Below, piece by piece: positions 8,003 to 61,872 of a DNA stretch of 64,000 nt. Position 1 is the stretch's first letter. Every line of letters begins with the position of its first letter. This DNA comes from Luteitalea sp. (lineage in GTDB: Bacteria > Acidobacteriota > Vicinamibacteria > Vicinamibacterales > Vicinamibacteraceae): positions 1-64,000 of the forward strand of contig WHTT01000031.1 of NCBI GenBank assembly GCA_009377605.1. The letters run 5' to 3'. Under the pieces are notes generated by a model, which did not search any database, was not told the DNA's origin, and was given only the letters and a program-made list of their open reading frames with translations. The position numbers and the translations under genes are program-made.

Positions 8003-8112
8003 GAAGGCTCCGGGCCTCGTCTCACATGACGATACGGCATGGGTATCATGCAATGACCTTATGCTACCGGCCATGGCCCGATCCGTCAACTCTGGAAGCA
8101 TGGTTCGAGCGC

Positions 8113-8138
8113 GGCGCGTTCGGCGAACGCGCCCTACC
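8113..8138. repeat. REP-like palindrome
   Basis: Exact inverted repeat GGCGCGTTC / GAACGCGCC followed by CCTACC, lying between pckA and the SpoIID-like gene. It is the same unit as at 61793-61818 in the opposite orientation. Confidence 0.75.
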
Positions 8139-9340: not shown

Positions 9341-11494
9341 ATGAGACACGCGTATTGGACCGCTAGGCTATTCATCCTGACTATTGGCTTCGCCGCTGGC
9401 GCTGCGGACGAACGCGGAGCCGCGAGGAGCGAGGACACACCCCCTGTGGCAAAGAGGATTCCCAAGGTTCGTGACTTGCACGGTGATCGGTTCGTGGACG
9501 ACTACTTCTGGCTGCGGGAGAAGTCCGACCCGGAGGTGCTCAAATACCTCGAAGCCGAGAACGCATACACGGACACGGTGATGAAACCACTCGAGGGAGT
9601 ACGGGAAACGCTCTATGCGGAGATGGTCGCGCGGATCAAGGAGACCGACTTGTCGGTCCCCTACCGAGAGGGCGACTACTGGTACTACACGCGGACCGAG
9701 CAAGGCAAGCAATACCCAATTCTCTGTCGCAAGCAAGGCAGCGTCGACGGAGGCGAAGAGATCTATCTGGATGTCAACGAGCTCGCCGTGGGCGAGAAGT
9801 TCATGGCCCTCGGCGCAGTCGCGGTGAGCGATGATGGGAATCTCGTCGCCTATGCAACGGACAACACTGGCTTCCGCGACTACCGGCTGCACGTCAAAGA
9901 TCTGCGAACCGGCCAGGTGATAGAAAGCCCGGTGGAAAAAATCGTCACGATAGCCTGGGCCGCCGATAACCAGACGCTGTTCTACACCATACCGGACGCC
10001 GCCAAGCGACCATACAGGTTGTATCGCCGCACGATTGGCCAACAAGGCGACTCGCTGTTGTACGAGGAAGAGGACGAGCGGTTCCGTGTGCACGTGTCGC
10101 GCTCGCGCAGCAAGGACTACCTCTTCCTCGAGGTAGAGAGCCATACGGCGTCGGAGGTGCGCTACCTTCGCACGGACGAGCCCACGGCGGCATGGCAGCT
10201 CATCGCAGCACGTGAGGACGACCACGAGTACGACGTCGACCACCGTGGCGACCTGTTCTACATCCGAACCAATCAGGCCGGCCGGAACTTCGGTCTCATG
10301 ACGGCGCCGCGTGACAGGCCAGACCGCACCAATTGGATCGAGCTCATCCCGCATCGCGCGGACGTCATGCTGGAGAGCGTGATTCTCTTCCGCGATCATC
10401 TGGTCCTCGCGGAGCGGGAGCACGGGCTGCCGGTCATCCGCGTTCAGCGATTCGGCAGCACGGCGTGGCAGGGCGTCCCATTCCCGGAACCGGTCTACAC
10501 GGCGGTCCCGGCGCCCGGCCCGGAGTTCAACGCCACAGAGCTTCGCTACCACTATCAGTCGTTCGTCACGCCGAGCTCCGTCTTCGAGTACGACATGGAG
10601 ACGCGAGAGACCAGGCTTCTGAAGGAAGACGAGGTGCTCGGCGGCTACGAGCGCACGAAGTATGCCACCGAGCGGATCTACGCAACCGCCGCGGACGGCG
10701 CCAAGGTCCCCGTGTCGCTCGTCTATCTGAAGACACTGAAGCGCGACGGGAGCGCGCCTCTCTTCTTGACGGCCTACGGCTCGTACGGCTTCCCCAGCAA
10801 TGTCCGGTTCTCATCCAATCGTTTCAGTCTCGTCGATCGTGGGGTCGTCTACGCGCTCGCGCACATTCGCGGCGGCGGCGACCTCGGCAAGCCGTGGCAC
10901 GATGCGGGACGCATGATGAACAAGAAGAACACCTTCACCGACTTCATCGCGTCTGCCGAGCACCTCCTCGCAAAGAAGTATGGCGCCAAGGATCGCCTGG
11001 TGATCGAGGGCGGCAGCGCGGGCGGCTTGCTCATGGGCGCGGTCACCAACATGCGACCAGATCTCTTCAAGGCCGTTGTGGCCCATGTCCCGTTCGTCGA
11101 CGTCATCAATACGATGTCGGACCCGTCGCTCCCCCTCACCGTAGCGGAGTTCGAAGAGTGGGGTAACCCAGCAAAGAAGGCGGAGTACGAGTACATCAGG
11201 TCGTACTGCCCATACACGAACCTCGCGCGCAAGGCGTATCCGGCGATGTTGGTCAAGACGTCGCTCGACGACAGTCAAGTGATGTATTGGGAGCCTGCGA
11301 AGTACGTGGCGCGGATGCGCGCGCTCAAGACCGACGAGAACCCGCTGATCTTCAAGACGAACATGAGCGCCGGCCACGGCGGCGCGTCGGGGCGCTACGA
11401 CCGCCTCCGCGAGATTGCCTTCGACTACGCGTTCATGCTCTGGCAAATGAAGGTGTCAGGACTGGGTAGGGCTCGTTCGCCGAACGCGCCGTAA
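9341..11494 (+). CDS. Prolyl oligopeptidase family protein (S9A, oligopeptidase B-like)
   Basis: 717 aa with an N-terminal signal-like segment, so probably periplasmic. The propeller begins with the FVDDYFWLREKSDPEVLKYL motif typical of oligopeptidase B. The C-terminal alpha/beta-hydrolase domain has the nucleophile GGSAGG (Ser559), Asp644 in DDSQVMYW and His679 in SAGHGG. It cleaves short peptides after basic or proline residues, according to family. The last codons and the TAA are supplied by a REP-like palindrome, giving an atypical tail after the VSGLG residues. A bidirectional hairpin follows. Confidence 0.93.
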   Translation: MRHAYWTARLFILTIGFAAGAADERGAARSEDTPPVAKRIPKVRDLHGDRFVDDYFWLREKSDPEVLKYLEAENAYTDTVMKPLEGVRETLYAEMVARIKETDLSVPYREGDYWYYTRTEQGKQYPILCRKQGSVDGGEEIYLDVNELAVGEKFMALGAVAVSDDGNLVAYATDNTGFRDYRLHVKDLRTGQVIESPVEKIVTIAWAADNQTLFYTIPDAAKRPYRLYRRTIGQQGDSLLYEEEDERFRVHVSRSRSKDYLFLEVESHTASEVRYLRTDEPTAAWQLIAAREDDHEYDVDHRGDLFYIRTNQAGRNFGLMTAPRDRPDRTNWIELIPHRADVMLESVILFRDHLVLAEREHGLPVIRVQRFGSTAWQGVPFPEPVYTAVPAPGPEFNATELRYHYQSFVTPSSVFEYDMETRETRLLKEDEVLGGYERTKYATERIYATAADGAKVPVSLVYLKTLKRDGSAPLFLTAYGSYGFPSNVRFSSNRFSLVDRGVVYALAHIRGGGDLGKPWHDAGRMMNKKNTFTDFIASAEHLLAKKYGAKDRLVIEGGSAGGLLMGAVTNMRPDLFKAVVAHVPFVDVINTMSDPSLPLTVAEFEEWGNPAKKAEYEYIRSYCPYTNLARKAYPAMLVKTSLDDSQVMYWEPAKYVARMRALKTDENPLIFKTNMSAGHGGASGRYDRLREIAFDYAFMLWQMKVSGLGRARSPNAP

Positions 11495-11540
11495 AGATAC
11501 CTCGGCGAGATGACGGCCGGCTCGGCGAGGCGGCCCTACC
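11465..11540. repeat. Pair of REP-like palindromes at the end of the peptidase gene
   Basis: Two units in opposite orientation: 11465-11490 starts GGTAGGGCTCG, and 11515-11540 ends CGGCCCTACC. The first provides the final codons and stop codon of the upstream gene. The ~190-bp spacer to the convergent HAD gene also holds a CCCTGAGCGGAGGCGAAGGGC-type palindromic stretch near 11640-11660. Confidence 0.75.
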
Positions 11541-15442: not shown

Positions 15443-15949
15443 ATGCCGCGCCGTTGGATCATCTCATTTCTGCTCATCGTTGCGTTCGTTGTTGGCGCCC
15501 CACGTCTGGCGGTGGAGCTGAAGGCGGGCTGTGCCCTGCCTGAGCATCCCGCTGCGGGAGCGCTCGAGGAAAAGCAGGCACGCAAGTGGTGGCGATGGGA
15601 CCTCTGTCAGGCAGAAATCGGTCTCACCGACAAGCAATCTGACAAGCTCGAAGGGATTTTTCAGAGCCTCTTGCCGGATCTGCACCGCCTGAAGGAGGAC
15701 CTCGATCAACGCGAGACCCATCTCTCGACCTTACTCGTCGAGGGAACGAAAGAGGCCAAGGTACGCGAGGCGATCGATCACGTCGAGGAATCGAGGAGCG
15801 AGCTGGGTCGCACCCGCGCGCTGATGCTCTATCGGATGTACAAGGTCCTCAGCCCCGACCAACGCCGAAAGCTCAAGGCGTTCTGGGAACGCCGCGAGAA
15901 GGAACAAGAGAGCTCCCAGGATCCCCCCAGCGCTCGGAGGCAGCTGTGA
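15443..15949 (+). CDS. Spy/CpxP-like periplasmic sensor (LTxxQ family)
   Basis: 168 aa with an N-terminal signal/anchor segment (residues ~4-20), then an all-helical domain with two LTxxQ-like motifs: LTDKQSDKLEGIF and LSPDQRRKLKAFWE, separated by coiled-coil sequence (HLSTLLVEG, then an EESRSELGRTRALM helix). Spy/CpxP/CnrX-type proteins sense or chaperone in envelope or metal stress. It overlaps the TolC-like gene by 4 bp (GTGA) as the first gene of a four-gene RND efflux operon, which suggests it monitors export stress for that pump. Confidence 0.85.
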   Translation: MPRRWIISFLLIVAFVVGAPRLAVELKAGCALPEHPAAGALEEKQARKWWRWDLCQAEIGLTDKQSDKLEGIFQSLLPDLHRLKEDLDQRETHLSTLLVEGTKEAKVREAIDHVEESRSELGRTRALMLYRMYKVLSPDQRRKLKAFWERREKEQESSQDPPSARRQL

Positions 15950-17772
15950 GGTTCCGATACCTCGTGTGCGCCGCTGCGCTCACCGGGGTTGTCGGGCTCG
16001 AGACCGCCGGCAACGCCACAGCGCAAACGACTCAGCCCGGCGCGCTCGGCGAACGCGCCCTGCCAGCATCGGACGCCCGTGTCGAGGAGCTGTTGGCGGA
16101 AGTGCGCGCACGGCAGTTGGCCCCGAGCCAACCAGAACTGGGCCAACCGGCAACGCCTGACACACCGGTCGTCGACCTTCGGCTGGACGAAGCGGTCAGC
16201 CTTGCGCTCGAGAACAACCCGACGATCGCCGCCGAACGGCTGAACCCGCGGCTCGAAGAGCTCAGCCTGGCCGGCCTGCGCAGCAACTACCGGCCGGTCC
16301 TCCAGACGACGATCACCCAGAACAACACGGTGCAACTGCCGCGGAATCAGCTCACGGGCGGCGAACGTGTCACGGATGACACGCAGACCTACACGTTTGG
16401 TGCGGACCAGGCACTACCCTGGGGCGGTGGTGGCTTCCAACTCTCGTGGCTGAACCGCCGACAAGAGTCCTCGAGCGAGTTCAATACATTCAATCCGCAG
16501 TACAACTCGTCGCTCGAGGCCGTGCTGACGCAGCCCTTGCTTCGCAACTTCCGGACCGATACCACGCGGACCGAGATTGAGCTCACGCAGATCAACCGGG
16601 ACGTCGCAAATGTGCAGTTGCGAGCCACGTTGACGAACACCGCCGCCGACGTTCGCAACGCGTACTGGGATCTGGTCTACGGCATTCAGGCCGTAGAGGT
16701 GGCGAAGCAATCGCTCGCGCTCGCGCAGAAACTGGTCGAGGACAACCAGGCACGCGTCGAGGTCGGCGCCATGGCGCCGCTCGACGTGGTCCAGGCAGAA
16801 GCGGAAGCGGCGGCTCGTCGCCAGACGCTGGCGCAGGCGAGGGCCACACACCGGATCGCCGAGCTGTCGCTCAAGCGCTTGATCGTCACGGGAACGAGTG
16901 ATCCGCGTTGGCACGCCCGACTCAATCCTGTCGACCAACCGAGCGTCAGCAAGCAGGACGTGGATGTCACCGTCGCGCTGAAGAATGCGCTCGGAAGCCG
17001 TACGGATCTTGCAGAGGCACGCCGCGGTCTGGAGGCCACGGATCTCACCACGCGTCTCTATAAGAACCAGTCGTTGCCGGCGGTGGACTTGGTGGCATCG
17101 TATGGGCTCCAAGGTATTGGCGGGACGCAAATCCTTCGCGACGGTGGCCTCGGCGGCGACGTGTCCGAAACGATCCCTGGCGACTTTGGGGACGCGCTTC
17201 GACGGATGACCGGCCGCGACTTCCCCACCTGGAACATCGAGCTCCAACTGAGCTATCCGATCGGGCCGAATCCTGCGGCCGCGAGCCACCAGCGCGCCCG
17301 TCTCCAGCGACAACAAGCTGAGATGGAACTGAAGGCGCTCGAGCTACAGGTCGCGACCGAGGTTACGAATGCGGCGCTGCAGGTGGAAAGCGCACTCGAG
17401 CAGGTGGACGCGGCAGAGGCCGCGCGGGAGCTGGCTCAACAGCGGCTCGATGCCGAGCAAACCCGGTTCGATGTGGGGCTCTCGACGGCGTTTTTCGTCG
17501 TGCAGGCGCAGCGCGATCTCGCCGATGCGGCCAATGTCGAGTTGCGCGGGGTGCTCGACTATCGCAGGGCGCTGGTGGAGCTCGAGCGCGTTCAGCTCGC
17601 GCCCGGCGGCAGTCTGTCGTTTGGCCCCTCGGGCGCCGGTGGCTTCGCCGCTGGCGGCGGTGGAGGCGCCGCAGGAACGGCGGGGCTCGGCGGTGGTAGT
17701 GGGGCGGCCGGAGGCGGTACCGGGGGTGCCGGAGGCGGCGGCGCGGCGGGCAATGGCCCTTCGCCTCAATGA
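15946..17772 (+). CDS. TolC-family outer-membrane efflux protein with Gly-rich tail
   Basis: 608 aa. A signal peptide is followed by a linker, then two tandem OEP/TolC repeats (DLRLDEAVSLALENNPTIAA near residue 70 and LELQVATEVTNAALQVESAL near residue 470) with long periplasmic helices. It forms the outer-membrane channel for the adaptor and pump encoded downstream. The start is GTG 15946. Two oddities: residues ~30-38 (GALGERALP) are encoded by a REP-like palindrome, and the last ~55 residues are almost pure Gly/Ala (GGGGGAAGTAGLGGG), unlike typical TolC C-termini. Confidence 0.93.
   Translation: MRFRYLVCAAALTGVVGLETAGNATAQTTQPGALGERALPASDARVEELLAEVRARQLAPSQPELGQPATPDTPVVDLRLDEAVSLALENNPTIAAERLNPRLEELSLAGLRSNYRPVLQTTITQNNTVQLPRNQLTGGERVTDDTQTYTFGADQALPWGGGGFQLSWLNRRQESSSEFNTFNPQYNSSLEAVLTQPLLRNFRTDTTRTEIELTQINRDVANVQLRATLTNTAADVRNAYWDLVYGIQAVEVAKQSLALAQKLVEDNQARVEVGAMAPLDVVQAEAEAAARRQTLAQARATHRIAELSLKRLIVTGTSDPRWHARLNPVDQPSVSKQDVDVTVALKNALGSRTDLAEARRGLEATDLTTRLYKNQSLPAVDLVASYGLQGIGGTQILRDGGLGGDVSETIPGDFGDALRRMTGRDFPTWNIELQLSYPIGPNPAAASHQRARLQRQQAEMELKALELQVATEVTNAALQVESALEQVDAAEAARELAQQRLDAEQTRFDVGLSTAFFVVQAQRDLADAANVELRGVLDYRRALVELERVQLAPGGSLSFGPSGAGGFAAGGGGGAAGTAGLGGGSGAAGGGTGGAGGGGAAGNGPSPQ
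16036..16061. repeat. REP-like palindrome inside the TolC-like gene
   Basis: GGCGCGCTCGGCGAACGCGC followed by CCTGCC differs from the intergenic REP-like unit at 8113-8138 by about two bases, yet it lies within an open reading frame just after the signal peptide and keeps the frame open. Confidence 0.65.
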
Positions 17773-17807: not shown

Positions 17808-19034
17808 ATGCGGAAGTTTCTCATCGCCTTCGCGCTCTTCGTCGCGGTGGCAGCAGGCGTCTTCTTCTATAGCCGCTCTGGCGCTCCTGCATCGGAGCGC
17901 CAACCGACGGGGGGGCGCGGCGGGAGGATGGGCGGCGAGCGTCCCACCCCGACCGTCGAGCTGGGAGCCGTCACGCGTGGCGAGATCAGCGCCAACTTGA
18001 CCGTCGTCGGCAACCTGGTTGGCGCGCAGACCGTCGACGTCGGGCCGAAGGTAAGCGGCCGCCTAGAGGCTGTGGACGTCCGTATCGGCGATTCTGTGCG
18101 GCGCGGTCAGCGCTTGGCGCTCGTCGAGGACCGCGAGCTGCAAGAGCAGGTGCGACAGCAGGAGTCGGCCTACGAGGTGGCCCAGGCCACGATTCGGCAA
18201 CGCGAGGCGGACCTGGGCGTCGCGGAATCGAACGCGCGGCGGTCGCGCAGTTTGTTCGAGCGCAAGATTCTCGCCCAACAGGCGCTCGAGGATGCCGAAG
18301 CTGCGGCACAGTCGGCGCGGGCGCAGCTCGACCTCGCGCGAGCGCAGTACTCTCAGGCGGGCTCTCGGCTCGAAGAGCTGCGGATTACCCTCGCCAACAC
18401 CCGTGTGGTCTCGCCGGTCCATGGATTCGTCGGGAAGCGTTACCTCGATCCGGGTGTCCAGGTTTCCCCCGCGGGCCCCATTGTCTCCGTCGTGGACATC
18501 AGCCTCGTACGTCTCGTCGTGAATCTCGTGGAACGGGACCTCCGGCGGGTGCAACCTGGCGTGCCCGCGGTGGTCCAGGTGGACGCGTATCCCGGAGAAG
18601 CCTTCAAGGGTCGCGTGGCACGCCTCGCGCCCGTGCTGGATCCGGCAACGCGCACCGCGCAGATGGAGGTCGAGGTCCCGAATTCGGACTCGCGGCTGAA
18701 GCCTGGGATGTACGCCCGGGTCAGTCTGCAGACCGCGCATAGTCAAGATGCTCTCGTGGTGCCCAGAAACGCGGTGGTCGACCAGGAGGGCCGACGCGGC
18801 GTGTTCCTGGTGAACGAGCGGACGGCGCGCTTCACCGAGATTCGCACGGGCATCGAGGAACCCCAGCGAGTCGAGGTGGTGAGCGGCCTGAGCGAAGGCC
18901 AGCAGGTCGTCACAACCGGCGCGGCGGGCCTCCGGCACGGTGACGCGGTGCAGGTGGCCGACCAGCGAAGCGGCAACGGAACGTCTCGAGCTGAAAACAG
19001 GCCGACAGCACGGAAGCCACGCAGTGAAGACTGA
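17808..19034 (+). CDS. RND efflux periplasmic adaptor (membrane fusion protein)
   Basis: About 408 aa. An N-terminal membrane anchor (MRKFLIAFALFVAVAAGVFF) is followed by the first lipoyl half (VGPKVSGRLEAVDVRIGDSV), an alpha-hairpin (coiled coil ~105-190), the second lipoyl half (TRVVSPVHGFVGKRYLDPG), beta-barrel and membrane-proximal domains. It bridges the inner-membrane pump and the TolC channel. An upstream ATG at 17769 overlaps the TolC stop (ATGA) and would add 13 charged residues; 17808 is preferred because the hydrophobic anchor begins there. Confidence 0.92.
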   Translation: MRKFLIAFALFVAVAAGVFFYSRSGAPASERQPTGGRGGRMGGERPTPTVELGAVTRGEISANLTVVGNLVGAQTVDVGPKVSGRLEAVDVRIGDSVRRGQRLALVEDRELQEQVRQQESAYEVAQATIRQREADLGVAESNARRSRSLFERKILAQQALEDAEAAAQSARAQLDLARAQYSQAGSRLEELRITLANTRVVSPVHGFVGKRYLDPGVQVSPAGPIVSVVDISLVRLVVNLVERDLRRVQPGVPAVVQVDAYPGEAFKGRVARLAPVLDPATRTAQMEVEVPNSDSRLKPGMYARVSLQTAHSQDALVVPRNAVVDQEGRRGVFLVNERTARFTEIRTGIEEPQRVEVVSGLSEGQQVVTTGAAGLRHGDAVQVADQRSGNGTSRAENRPTARKPRSED

Positions 19035-19078: not shown

Positions 19079-22000
19079 ATGAGCATCCCACGCCTCGCCA
19101 TCCACCGTCCTGTCACCGTCTTCATGCTCTGTAGCGTCGTCCTGCTGCTCGGCTCGGTGGCCCTTCTTCGCTTGCCCGTTGATCTGATGCCGGATCTCGA
19201 GATGCCGAGCCTGACGATCCGGGTCAACTACGAGGGCGTCGGGCCGCGCGAAATCGAGGAATCGATCACTCGGCCGATCGAGCGATCCGTCGCGGCCGTG
19301 GCTGGCCTCGATCAGATCAATTCGAGCTCGAACGAGGGCAGCAGCCAGGTGCGCCTCAACTTCACGTGGGGCACCGACATCGACGTCGCCGCCGACGATG
19401 TGCGTGCCCGGCTCGATCGCGTGCGGGGCCAGCTTCCAGAGGATGCCGACGCGCCCACGCTCTACAAGTTCGACTCGTCGCAGTTCCCAATTGTCTTCAT
19501 TGCGGTCGCTGGCGACTTCGATCCGGTGACGCTGCGCGAGCTCACGGAGAACGATCTCATGCCGCGCTTCGAGCGCATCTCGGGTGTCGCGGCGGTTGAG
19601 GTGCGGGGCGGCCTCGCCCGACAGATTCTCGTCGAGCTCTCGCGCGAAAAGACGACGGCGCTCGGACTCCCGGTCGATCAGGTGGTCCAGCTCCTCCAGA
19701 GCGAGAATCAGAACGTCCCGATCGGCGAAATCGACGAAGGCGACCTCACGTATCTCCTTCGCAGCCCAGGCCAGTTCACGGATCTGGACGACATTCGCAA
19801 TATTGCCGTGATGACGCGCGGTGGCGTCTCGTCAGCGACGCCGCAGACGGCGTCGTCTGGTTTCGGCGTCCCGGTCTACCTGCGCGATGTGGCCGAGGTG
19901 CGCGACGGGACCGAGGATCGGCGCTCCTACGTGACGCTCGATGGAAAACCTGGCATCCGCCTGACCATCACGAAGCAGTCTGGCGAGAACACGGTCGCCG
20001 TGGCCGAGAGGATCAGCGCGGAGGTCGAGCGCATCAACCGCGAGATGCCAAGCGTCAATTTGCGGATCACGCGCGATATGTCGATCTTCATCCAGCAGTC
20101 GATTGCCGCGGTGCGCGAGGCGGTGCTGCTCGGCTCCGTGCTGGTCGTCCTGATCATCTTCATCTTCCTGCGAAGCTTTCGCTCGACGCTGATCATCTGC
20201 GTGTCGATCCCGATCTCGATCATCGGCACGTTTGCGTTGCTCTATTTCGGTGGCTACACGCTGAACACGATGACCTTCGGGGGGCTCGCGCTCGGGGTGG
20301 GCATGATCGTCGACGCCTCGATCGTGGTGCTCGAGAACGCCCAGCGGCACATGGAACTGGGCAAGGATCGCGTGCAGGCGGCCATCGATGGCAGCGAGGA
20401 AATGTGGTCGGCAATCGTGGCCTCCACGCTGACCCACATCGCCGTCTTCGTGCCGCTCTTCTTCCTCGCCGGCTTCTCGAGCATCCTCTTCAGGCAGCTC
20501 TCGGTCGTGGTGATCTTCTCGCTCATGATGTCGCTGTTCGTGGCGGTGACGCTCGTGCCGGTGCTCTGCGCGCTGCTGCTGAAGGCGCCCGTCAAGGGCG
20601 AGGCGCGTCGCGGGTGGTCCGGCCGCATGTTCGAGACGAGCGAGCGGTGGCTCCAGCGCGTCGATGACGGCTACCGAGGCTTCCTGCATCGTGCGCTCGC
20701 TCACCGGCCGACGGTGCTCGCCACCGGAACAGGCCTGTTCGTCCTTGCCCTCTTCATCCTGCCGCTGCTCTCCTTCGAGCTGATGCCGCAGACCGATGAG
20801 GGTGAGGTCGATGTCGACATCGAGCTGCCCGTGGGCACGCGCATCGAGCGGACCGAACAGGTCCTGATCCAGATGGAACAGATGGTTCGAGAGGCGGTCC
20901 CGGAGGCGATAAGCCTTTTCACGGAAGGCGGCGGTGGCGGATGGCGGGGCGGCTCGACGCACGAGGGTGAGATCGAAATCCAGCTGACCCGCAAGGAGGA
21001 GCGATCGCGCTCCAGCGAGGAGATCGCACAGGCGCTGCGGCGAGAGCTGTCGGGCCTCCCCGGCGTGGAGGTGCGTGCCCGCGCTTCGGGCGGCAATTTT
21101 GCGCTGAACCGTATCCTGGGCGACCAGGCCGAATCCCGTCTCTCGCTCGAGATTCGCGGGTACGATCTCGAGGACGCCAGGCGCCTATCCTTGGCGGCCC
21201 GGGACGCCATGCAGACCCTTCCAGGCATTACCGACGTCCGTATCGACCGCGAGGAGGGGCGTCCCGAGATGGCGATTCGGGTCGACCGTGACAAGGCAGC
21301 CACACTCGGCATGGGGGTGGGGCAGGTTGCCGACACGCTGCAGACCAACATCGCTGGTAGACAGGCGGCCTTCTATCGCGAGCGCGGCGAGGAGTACCCG
21401 ATTATCGTGCGTCTTCGCGAAGAGGACCGGCGGCGCGTGACCGACGTGGGCGACGTGCTCGTCACGACCCCGTCCGGGAGCATCGTCCAAGCAAAGAACC
21501 TCCTGAACCTGCAGCCCGACGCTGGTCCTACCGAGATCGACCGGAAGAATCAGCAGCGGATCACCACCGTGAACGCGGAGATCGAGGTGCCGCTCAGCGA
21601 AGCCGTTTCCCGCGTCCGGGAGATCCTGCCTCGGCTCGATATTCCGCACGACTTCACGGTGGGATTTGGTGCGGAGCTCGAGGAGCAGCAGAAGACGTTC
21701 CGGCAGCTCCAGTTGTTGCTCGTGCTCGCGATTCTCCTGGTCTATGCGGTGATGGCATCGCAGTACGAGTCGCTCCGCGATCCGTTCATCATCATGTTCT
21801 CCGTCCCGCTCGCGGCGATTGGCGTTGTCGGCATCCTGTGGCTCACCAACACAGCGTTCAGCTTGCAAGCGTTCATTGGGGCCATCATGCTGGCGGGCAT
21901 CGTGGTGAACAACGCCATTCTGCTCGTGGACTACACCATCACGCTCCGGCGCAGAGACAAGGTGCCGCTGCGTGAAGCCGTGGAGCTCGCTGGCCGCACA

Positions 22001-22264
22001 CGACTCCGGCCCATCTTGATCACCACCCTCACGACCGTCCTCGGTCTCGTGCCCATGTCGCTCGGCTATGGTGAGGGCGCCGAGCTACAGGCCCCCCTCG
22101 CGCGCGTGGTGATTGGCGGGCTCATCACGTCCACGCTCATCACGCTGGTGTTCGTGCCAACGCTGTACACCATCTTCGAGGAAGGCTTCAGGGGCTTGCG
22201 CCGAGCGCCTGGCCGGGAGCCTGCAGCGCAAGCGCCCGAGGTGGCGGTCGGCAGGCGCGCGTAA
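19079..22264 (+). CDS. RND efflux transporter permease (AcrB/Mdt-like)
   Basis: 1061 aa, the normal length of a proton-driven RND pump with 12 TM helices. It shows the N-terminal MSIPRLAIHRPVTVFMLCSV helix, the first porter domain (PDLEMPSLTIRVNYEGVGPR), the TM4 proton-relay motif GGLALGVGMIVDASIVVLEN and the second-half AGIVVNNAILLVDYTITLRR. It is the last gene of the Spy-TolC-MFP-RND operon. It resembles the hydrophobic drug/lipid exporters of Acidobacteria more than metal pumps (no CusA-like Met pattern seen). The substrate is unknown. Confidence 0.95.
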   Translation: MSIPRLAIHRPVTVFMLCSVVLLLGSVALLRLPVDLMPDLEMPSLTIRVNYEGVGPREIEESITRPIERSVAAVAGLDQINSSSNEGSSQVRLNFTWGTDIDVAADDVRARLDRVRGQLPEDADAPTLYKFDSSQFPIVFIAVAGDFDPVTLRELTENDLMPRFERISGVAAVEVRGGLARQILVELSREKTTALGLPVDQVVQLLQSENQNVPIGEIDEGDLTYLLRSPGQFTDLDDIRNIAVMTRGGVSSATPQTASSGFGVPVYLRDVAEVRDGTEDRRSYVTLDGKPGIRLTITKQSGENTVAVAERISAEVERINREMPSVNLRITRDMSIFIQQSIAAVREAVLLGSVLVVLIIFIFLRSFRSTLIICVSIPISIIGTFALLYFGGYTLNTMTFGGLALGVGMIVDASIVVLENAQRHMELGKDRVQAAIDGSEEMWSAIVASTLTHIAVFVPLFFLAGFSSILFRQLSVVVIFSLMMSLFVAVTLVPVLCALLLKAPVKGEARRGWSGRMFETSERWLQRVDDGYRGFLHRALAHRPTVLATGTGLFVLALFILPLLSFELMPQTDEGEVDVDIELPVGTRIERTEQVLIQMEQMVREAVPEAISLFTEGGGGGWRGGSTHEGEIEIQLTRKEERSRSSEEIAQALRRELSGLPGVEVRARASGGNFALNRILGDQAESRLSLEIRGYDLEDARRLSLAARDAMQTLPGITDVRIDREEGRPEMAIRVDRDKAATLGMGVGQVADTLQTNIAGRQAAFYRERGEEYPIIVRLREEDRRRVTDVGDVLVTTPSGSIVQAKNLLNLQPDAGPTEIDRKNQQRITTVNAEIEVPLSEAVSRVREILPRLDIPHDFTVGFGAELEEQQKTFRQLQLLLVLAILLVYAVMASQYESLRDPFIIMFSVPLAAIGVVGILWLTNTAFSLQAFIGAIMLAGIVVNNAILLVDYTITLRRRDKVPLREAVELAGRTRLRPILITTLTTVLGLVPMSLGYGEGAELQAPLARVVIGGLITSTLITLVFVPTLYTIFEEGFRGLRRAPGREPAAQAPEVAVGRRA

Positions 22265-22425
22265 CCACAGAGGACACGAAGGGTACGAAGGACACAAAGA
22301 TTTCACCACGAAGGACACGAAGAGCACGAAGAAACCAATTGGATTTTCTTCTTCGTGAACTTCGTGTCCTTCGTGGTTGATCCTTCGTGTCCTCAGTGGT
22401 GAACTTTCGTGGTCTTCGCGGTTCG
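22261..22425. repeat. 9-bp periodic (ACGAAGGAC) inverted repeat
   Basis: Head-to-tail 9-mers (GACACGAAG, GGTACGAAG, GACACAAAG, GACACGAAG, AGCACGAAG) run from 22271 to 22333. The complementary series (CTTCGTGAA, CTTCGTGTC, CTTCGTGGT) follows from 22349. Arms ACCACGAAGGACACGAAG and CTTCGTGTCCTTCGTGGT pair perfectly over 18 bp, so the RNA would form a long hairpin just after the pump stop codon at 22264. It could serve as the operon terminator, although the repeat is clearly a dispersed element type. Confidence 0.85.
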
Positions 22426-31422: not shown

Positions 31423-32184
31423 ATGAATCGATGGCTCAACGTCTCGTCAGCGTCTTGCCTCGTCCTGGTGGCCGCAGCAGGTGTCCTCGGCGCGGCCCAG
31501 CAAGGTTATGAGCCAACGCCGGGCGAGATTCCGCCACCGGCCGAGGCGGCGCCGGTTGTCACGCCAGGCGAAGGCACGGCAGCGCCCTCCGATGCCATCG
31601 TGTTGTTCGACGGCAACGATCTGTCGAGTTGGGCAAGCGAAAAGGGAGAAGGGGCGCCAGGCTGGAAGGTCGAGAGCGGCTACATGGAGGTGGTCAAAGG
31701 CGCCGGCGGCATCGCCACCAAACAAGGTTTCGGCGACTGCCAACTCCACATCGAATGGGCGACGCCCGCTGAAGTCGAAGGCGAGAGCCAGGGGCGCGGG
31801 AACAGCGGCGTGTTCCTGCAGGGGCGCTACGAGGTGCAAGTCCTCGACGCCTATCAGAACGAGACGTACTTCCATGGCACGGCGGGATCGGTCTACAAAC
31901 AACACGCACCGCTCGTGAACATGGCGCGAAAGCCGGGTGAATGGCAGACCTACGACATCATCTTTCGCGCGCCCGAGTTTGACAGCAGCGGTGCGGTCAC
32001 GACGCCCGCCTACGTCACCGTGCTGTGGAACGGTGTGCTCGTGCAGGACCACGTAGAAGTCAAAGGCGGCACAACTCACGAGGGGGCACCGACATACGAG
32101 GCACACGACGCGGAGCTGCCCTTGCTACTGCAGGACCATGGGAACCCTGTGCGCTTCCGTAACATCTGGGTCCGCAAGCTTTAG
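31423..32184 (+). CDS. DUF1080 / 3-keto-disaccharide hydrolase family protein
   Basis: 253 aa. A signal peptide (to about residue 25) and a Pro/Ala linker lead into a concanavalin-like sandwich domain: [82 protein letters not shown] and the terminal [13 protein letters not shown]. The family cleaves 3-keto glycosides or binds glycans and is greatly expanded in Acidobacteria and Planctomycetes. The product is exported. A REP-like palindrome begins at the last base of the stop codon. Confidence 0.9.
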
Positions 32185-32209
32185 GTAGGGCCGCCTCGCC
32201 GAGGCGGCC
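32184..32209. repeat. REP-like palindrome
   Basis: GGTAGGG followed by the perfect inverted repeat GGCCGCCTCG / CGAGGCGGCC, starting at the G of the TAG stop codon of the DUF1080 gene and lying 18 bp before the hutH start. Confidence 0.75.
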
Positions 32210-61758: not shown

Positions 61759-61818
61759 GGACGCCTCGGCGAGGCATCCCTACCGCCACCATGGTAGGGC
61801 GCGTTCGCCGAACGCGCC
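61759..61818. repeat. Pair of REP-like palindromes in opposite orientation
   Basis: Unit 1 (61759-61784) is GGACGCCTCGGCGAGGC followed by ATCCCTACC; unit 2 (61793-61818) is GGTAGGGCGCG followed by TTCGCCGAACGCGCC. CCCTACC and GGTAGGG face each other across 8 bp, so the pair can fold as one long cruciform between the CusA-like gene and the lipoprotein gene. Confidence 0.8.
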
Positions 61819-61872
61819 AGACCGGACAAGTCTCCCGTCATAGATCCCTTCCCTGCCGAATGTTGATCTCCT

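Follow-up and report, generated by a model that had tools for sequence, protein, structure and literature searches.

The primary papers on the Rickettsia palindromic elements (RPEs) reportedly describe palindromic repeats that lie in frame within protein-coding genes. For REPs with a GTAG head, copies inside genes of several species are already in print, together with the use of the REP TAG as a stop codon and the proposal that REPs do no harm in flexible linkers or loops (Di Nocera et al. 2013, PMC3733652). The repeat that we describe here, in the gene of a TolC-like efflux channel of Luteitalea sp., resembles those cases in that a palindrome of a GTAG-headed family lies wholly within an ORF and supplies extra residues, with most copies of the family being intergenic near gene 3′ ends and some providing TAG stops; it differs from them in its host, a member of the Vicinamibacteria (Acidobacteriota), and in its target, an efflux channel. 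In the main text of PMC3733652 the string 'acidobacter' occurs once, in connection with transposases, and 'outer membrane' and 'efflux' are absent, the supplementary target-gene list lying outside this count. No account of intragenic REPs of Acidobacteriota was found in the portions of PMC3733652, PMC6006769 and PMC8852301 considered. Because PMC3733652 already describes intragenic GTAG REPs, TAG stops and the tolerance of linkers, the present event is a further case of a known kind, an intragenic GTAG REP. The likeness to RPEs, as PMC3733652 presents them, is that palindromic repeats stand in frame in protein-coding genes; in contrast, the intragenic repeats of R. conorii are given there as CGTC-tagged REPs or the longer RPE-1, rather than as GTAG-tagged, and just 8 of the 220 REPs sampled in our genome lie well inside genes. 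The REPtron of S. maltophilia, with its group 3 TnpAREP, shares with the present family a perfect palindrome, a 3-nt loop and a GTAG head, and a GCAG head was tested there; its stem is of 8 bp rather than 9 bp (PMC8266576).

The window (the whole stretch of DNA analysed, 64,000 nucleotides) contains genes for a TolC-like outer membrane efflux protein (OEP), a membrane fusion protein and an RND pump (Table 1). The OEP gene is an ORF of 608 codons with a GTG start that overlaps the upstream stop. The REP starts 93 nt inside this coding sequence, in frame and antisense to the gene, with the frame open throughout the element, and the sense strand encodes GALGERALP as residues 32-40, between an apparent signal peptide (putative and, like its cleavage site, read by eye from the sequence) and SDARVEELL, the first conserved motif. 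The element is taken as coding rather than as 5′ untranslated because a GTG also stands at the position of the OEP start codon in the DNA of the sole congener and because the two proteins align without gaps from the start to residue 61. The in-frame location of these nine residues after the signal peptide of a TolC-like protein, as given in the first-pass annotation, is borne out, the signal peptide being an apparent one. An AlphaFold2 model from a three-sequence alignment (mean pLDDT 48.5, pTM 0.30), which is too poor to rely on, has coil over residues 1-41 and a first helix from residue 42, an arrangement consistent with a linker at the REP site. A search of solved structures returned 13 matches, each of them weak and to a channel protein of the outer membrane, in most cases one named TolC; they span about residues 206-319, and none extends to the linker.

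Once properly delimited, the element is a 26-nt REP unit at 16039-16064, reading GGCAGGGCGCGTTCGCCGAGCGCGCC on the minus strand, with a GGCAGGG head (GCAG in place of GTAG), a 9-bp stem containing one T.G pair (minus strand) and a 3-nt loop. The first-pass annotation had reported a 26-bp copy about two mismatches from an intergenic unit. This holds, with the boundaries refined: the 26-mer at 16036-16061 differs from window positions 8110-8135 at 2 sites and from 61796-61821 at 3 (minus strand), and has zero matches in 100 dinucleotide shuffles of the window. The redrawn unit is 2 mismatches from the type B consensus and likewise 2 from type F, and it is a single mismatch away from each of three copies, the intergenic G000:C39:44799 and C27:54560 and the in-gene C10:14581. 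It is a member of a GTAG-headed REP family.

Table 1. Positions in the window of the REP-bearing gene, its neighbours and the REP units compared.
Feature	Position	Strand	Remarks
Type-B REP, intergenic	8113..8138	-	0 mismatches; comparison unit of the first-pass annotation
LTXXQ / Metal_resist family gene	15443..15949	+	Upstream; 4-nt overlap with OEP gene start
TolC-like outer membrane efflux protein (OEP) gene	15946..17772	+	REP host; Pfam OEP 149.8 bits, cut-off 22
REP in OEP gene	16039-16064	-
HlyD/CusB-type membrane fusion protein gene	17808..19034	+
AcrB/AcrD/AcrF-family RND pump gene	19079..22264	+
Type-C REP unit	61759-61784		Inverted, 1 mismatch; adjoins 61793..61818
Type-B REP, intergenic	61793..61818	+	0 mismatches

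The main forms of the repeat in the host genome are GGTAGGGCCGCCTCGCCGAGGCGGCC (A), GGTAGGGCGCGTTCGCCGAACGCGCC (B) and GGTAGGGACGCCTCGCCGAGGCGTCC (C), with a rarer form GGTAGGGCGCGCTCGCCGAGCGCGCC (F). At up to 3 mismatches we found 220 distinct REP sites (A 86, B 78, C 46 and F 10) in 2.78 of 6.79 Mb (41% of the genome), in stretches chosen mostly on contig size and in some cases because they were already known to hold matches; the sampled density is a biased estimate, stretches having been chosen partly for their matches, and the fraction in genes should be little affected. Genes in this survey were called with our own hexamer scorer rather than a standard caller. A 21-base palindrome had 162 matches genome-wide, against 4 for the backwards pattern (up to 3 mismatches, each strand), and the head GGTAGGG is present in 155 of the 199 copies that are not wholly genic and in 15 of the 21 in-gene copies. 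Of 40 genomes searched for the type-B unit with up to 3 mismatches allowed, 6 contain it, the host genome included, and all six belong to the same family. The match in one of these six is a lone and doubtful one, the unit is missing from one of the seven members of the family, and the stem and loop forms vary between genomes. One gene for a REP-associated tyrosine transposase (RAYT) scored above the curated cut-off (L039:1447-1917, about G000:C22:23258-23731; NF047646, 100.7 bits, cut-off 80), and a second Y1_Tnp match in the genome is broken by an internal stop. Three features of the GTAG REP family are found here: a short palindrome with GTAG at one end (in the family as a whole), a high copy number with most copies intergenic, and a RAYT in the genome. 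Within G000:C22 21001-27000, none of the four consensus forms flanks the RAYT gene even when 6 mismatches are allowed, and the closest of the sampled REP copies lie some 2.6-2.7 kb upstream, in which the locus departs from the REPtron of S. maltophilia (PMC8266576). The lack of adjacent REPs does not bar the repeats from the GTAG family, because several species carry RAYT genes without flanking REPs (PMC3733652). By analogy, the copy in the OEP gene may itself be immobile: for one TnpAREP, the transposase of S. maltophilia, cleavage could hardly be detected when the head was GCAG (PMC8266576).

Copies within genes are rare. The 220 sampled REPs comprise 174 intergenic copies, 25 that overlap the edge of a gene, 13 that form gene tails and 8 inside genes. 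Of the 25 edge copies, 24 are at the 3′ end of the gene and share their first base, or their first five, with its stop codon. Random 26-mers fall wholly within genes in 81% of cases, compared with 21 of the 220 REPs, and REP insertion into genes is therefore avoided or, more likely, purged. Seven genes, including that of the OEP, have a REP inside, and three of them, the OEP gene again among them, were compared with relatives. In a FabZ-LpxA fusion gene (L053:11778-13151; G000:C2:71778-73151, minus) two paired REPs lie in frame within the FabZ domain, and 22-23 residues are missing there in all six family relatives. In a gamma-glutamyltransferase gene (L103:11584-14649; G000:C10) a REP pair lies in frame close to the C-terminus, with 21 extra residues relative to the congener; the four other aligned family members terminate even earlier, and the sixth genome, which gave only a distant match, stands outside the alignment. 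Both are cleaner insertions than that of the OEP gene, and the three genes together form a small collection in which the tolerance of proteins and of reading frames for REPs could be compared. Among in-gene copies antisense to their gene, 7 of 10, including that in the OEP gene, share the frame [GA/GR]xGExxLP (p = 0.02, post hoc); same-orientation copies, some of them pairs within one gene, fall in one of two open frames in 8 of 11 cases (p = 0.11). That REPs in this lineage repeatedly give rise to new segments of proteins in frame, as linkers, loops, C-terminal tails or stop codons, and that the antisense reading [GA/GR]xGExxLP is favoured as the best-tolerated peptide, is a generalisation that we regard as unlikely.

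In all six other orthologues from the family the REP is absent, the best matches to the four consensus forms having 10-11 mismatches; the linker of the congener holds no recognisable REP, with 10 mismatches at best. The scan took in 29 other orthologues over about 210 nt around the match start and may miss the linker in distant ones, and the statement of absence is confined to the six family members. A search of named genomes found two loci, one in the congener and the other coding for a distant protein. Host and congener share 56/93 nucleotides before the REP, 9/26 within it (shuffle mean 9.1) and 41/55 after it. The residues GALGERALP were seen neither in the congener nor in the other orthologues aligned. 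The observation named beforehand as refuting the first-pass reading, a REP-free orthologue that keeps these residues, did not occur among the orthologues examined. Linker length could be anchored at both ends in 12 of the 30 orthologues and could not be in the other 18: it is 14 residues in both genomes of the genus (the host and its sole congener), 6, 6, 6, 6 and 8 in five family members of another genus, and 2-4 in the other five anchored orthologues. Against a simple insertion, a gain of nine residues is thus invisible relative to the closest relative. We think that the linker of the congener, which is proline- and alanine-rich, lengthened independently. Sequence supports a recent insertion, and length supports it relative to five of the six family members but not relative to the congener. 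The expectation of a nine-residue insertion unique to the lineage is accordingly upheld only in part: the residues are unique to the host genome among those examined, whereas the sole congener has a linker of equal length.

We consider it likely that the REP in the OEP gene is a recent, tolerated and probably neutral RAYT-type insertion that followed the split from the congener. A GTAG-headed REP, a short element that does not move on its own and that a RAYT probably mobilises, would have been copied into the linker that separates the signal peptide of the efflux channel from its first predicted helix, antisense to the gene, with the frame open across the element and the reading frame retained. 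The nine REP-encoded residues would have been tolerated because relatives differ in the length and sequence of this linker, a variation that agrees with the flexible, tolerant region of the first-pass annotation, and this copy would have survived where most genic insertions were presumably purged. At four-fold sites 127 of 281 positions differ from the congener, and an unconstrained 26-mer would be expected to have undergone about 7 changes on the host lineage since the split, compared with the 1-2 seen. This dating argument weakens if the REP segment changed at only a third or a half of the rate at four-fold sites, for which the probability of at most 2 changes is 0.47 and 0.21, and of at most 1 change 0.22 and 0.07, respectively; a total of 2 changes would then not be improbable. 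On the insertion reading, the OEP gene presents an apparently recent case in which an exported channel protein has gained residues from a selfish palindrome.

An unlikely alternative is that the linker was long to begin with and that the REP replaced a stretch of it, by an insertion accompanied by a deletion or by recombination. The equal linker length in the two congeners and the chance level of identity over the REP would both follow from such a replacement, but a coincident deletion of equal length is required, and both of the other in-gene REP pairs for which relatives were aligned have added residues on balance, about 22-23 in one gene and 21 in the other. It is quite unlikely that the REP entered in the common ancestor of both genomes of the genus, the copy of the congener having since eroded and that of the host having stayed near the consensus through constraint or exchange with other copies. 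Although the 14-residue linker is common to both congeners, against 2-8 residues in the other ten anchored orthologues, and the dating argument is weak under constraint, nearly all change would have to fall on one branch, given that 17 of 26 sites differ and the host copy is 1-2 mismatches from the consensus or sister copies, and the congener retains no trace of a REP.

A selected role of the REP peptide or hairpin, for example as a spacer in export or channel assembly or as an early mRNA hairpin, seems to us very improbable. The preserved reading frame, the frame common to most antisense copies and the GCAG head, given its effect on cleavage by the S. maltophilia transposase (PMC8266576), would all be in keeping with such a role. 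However, same-orientation copies have no significant frame bias, the residues are not kept in the congener or the other orthologues examined, and GGCAGGG heads, found in 10 copies, are not peculiar to copies in genes (2 of 21, versus 8 of the 199 others, p = 0.245). The term 'domesticated' used in the first-pass annotation is unsupported for this REP, the copy being 1 mismatch from intergenic copies and one genome carrying a REP at the site. The codon change from CTA to CTG in the OEP and gamma-glutamyltransferase copies was considered as a sign of selection and rejected, since the GGCAGGG head also occurs among the copies that are not wholly genic. An early mRNA hairpin was likewise rejected, as the folded sense strand is no stabler than shuffles (z 0.11 for 51 nt and 0.77 for 146 nt; minus strand -1.0). 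That coding DNA resembles a REP here by chance has a negligible probability, since the minimum over 2000 codon shuffles of the OEP gene was 4 mismatches to the REP (0/2000 at up to 3) and the reversed-consensus control gave 0 sites at up to 4 mismatches and 4 at 5 in 2.78 Mb.

Other palindromes were also noted. A prolyl oligopeptidase gene (9446-11494) terminates within a REP at 11465-11490, from which its tail GRARSPNAP derives; a partner unit in inverted orientation follows this REP at 11515-11540. In a gene of the 3-keto-disaccharide hydrolase family (31468-32184), the last G of the TAG stop is common to a type-A REP at 32184-32209. A second GTAG-tagged palindrome, GTGTAGGCCCGACCTTTAGGTCGGGC, is recurrent in contigs C1, C2, C4 and C8 of G000. 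A 45-nt inverted repeat of ACGAAGGACACGAAG-like units is located 3′ of the AcrB-type pump gene, at 22289-22393.
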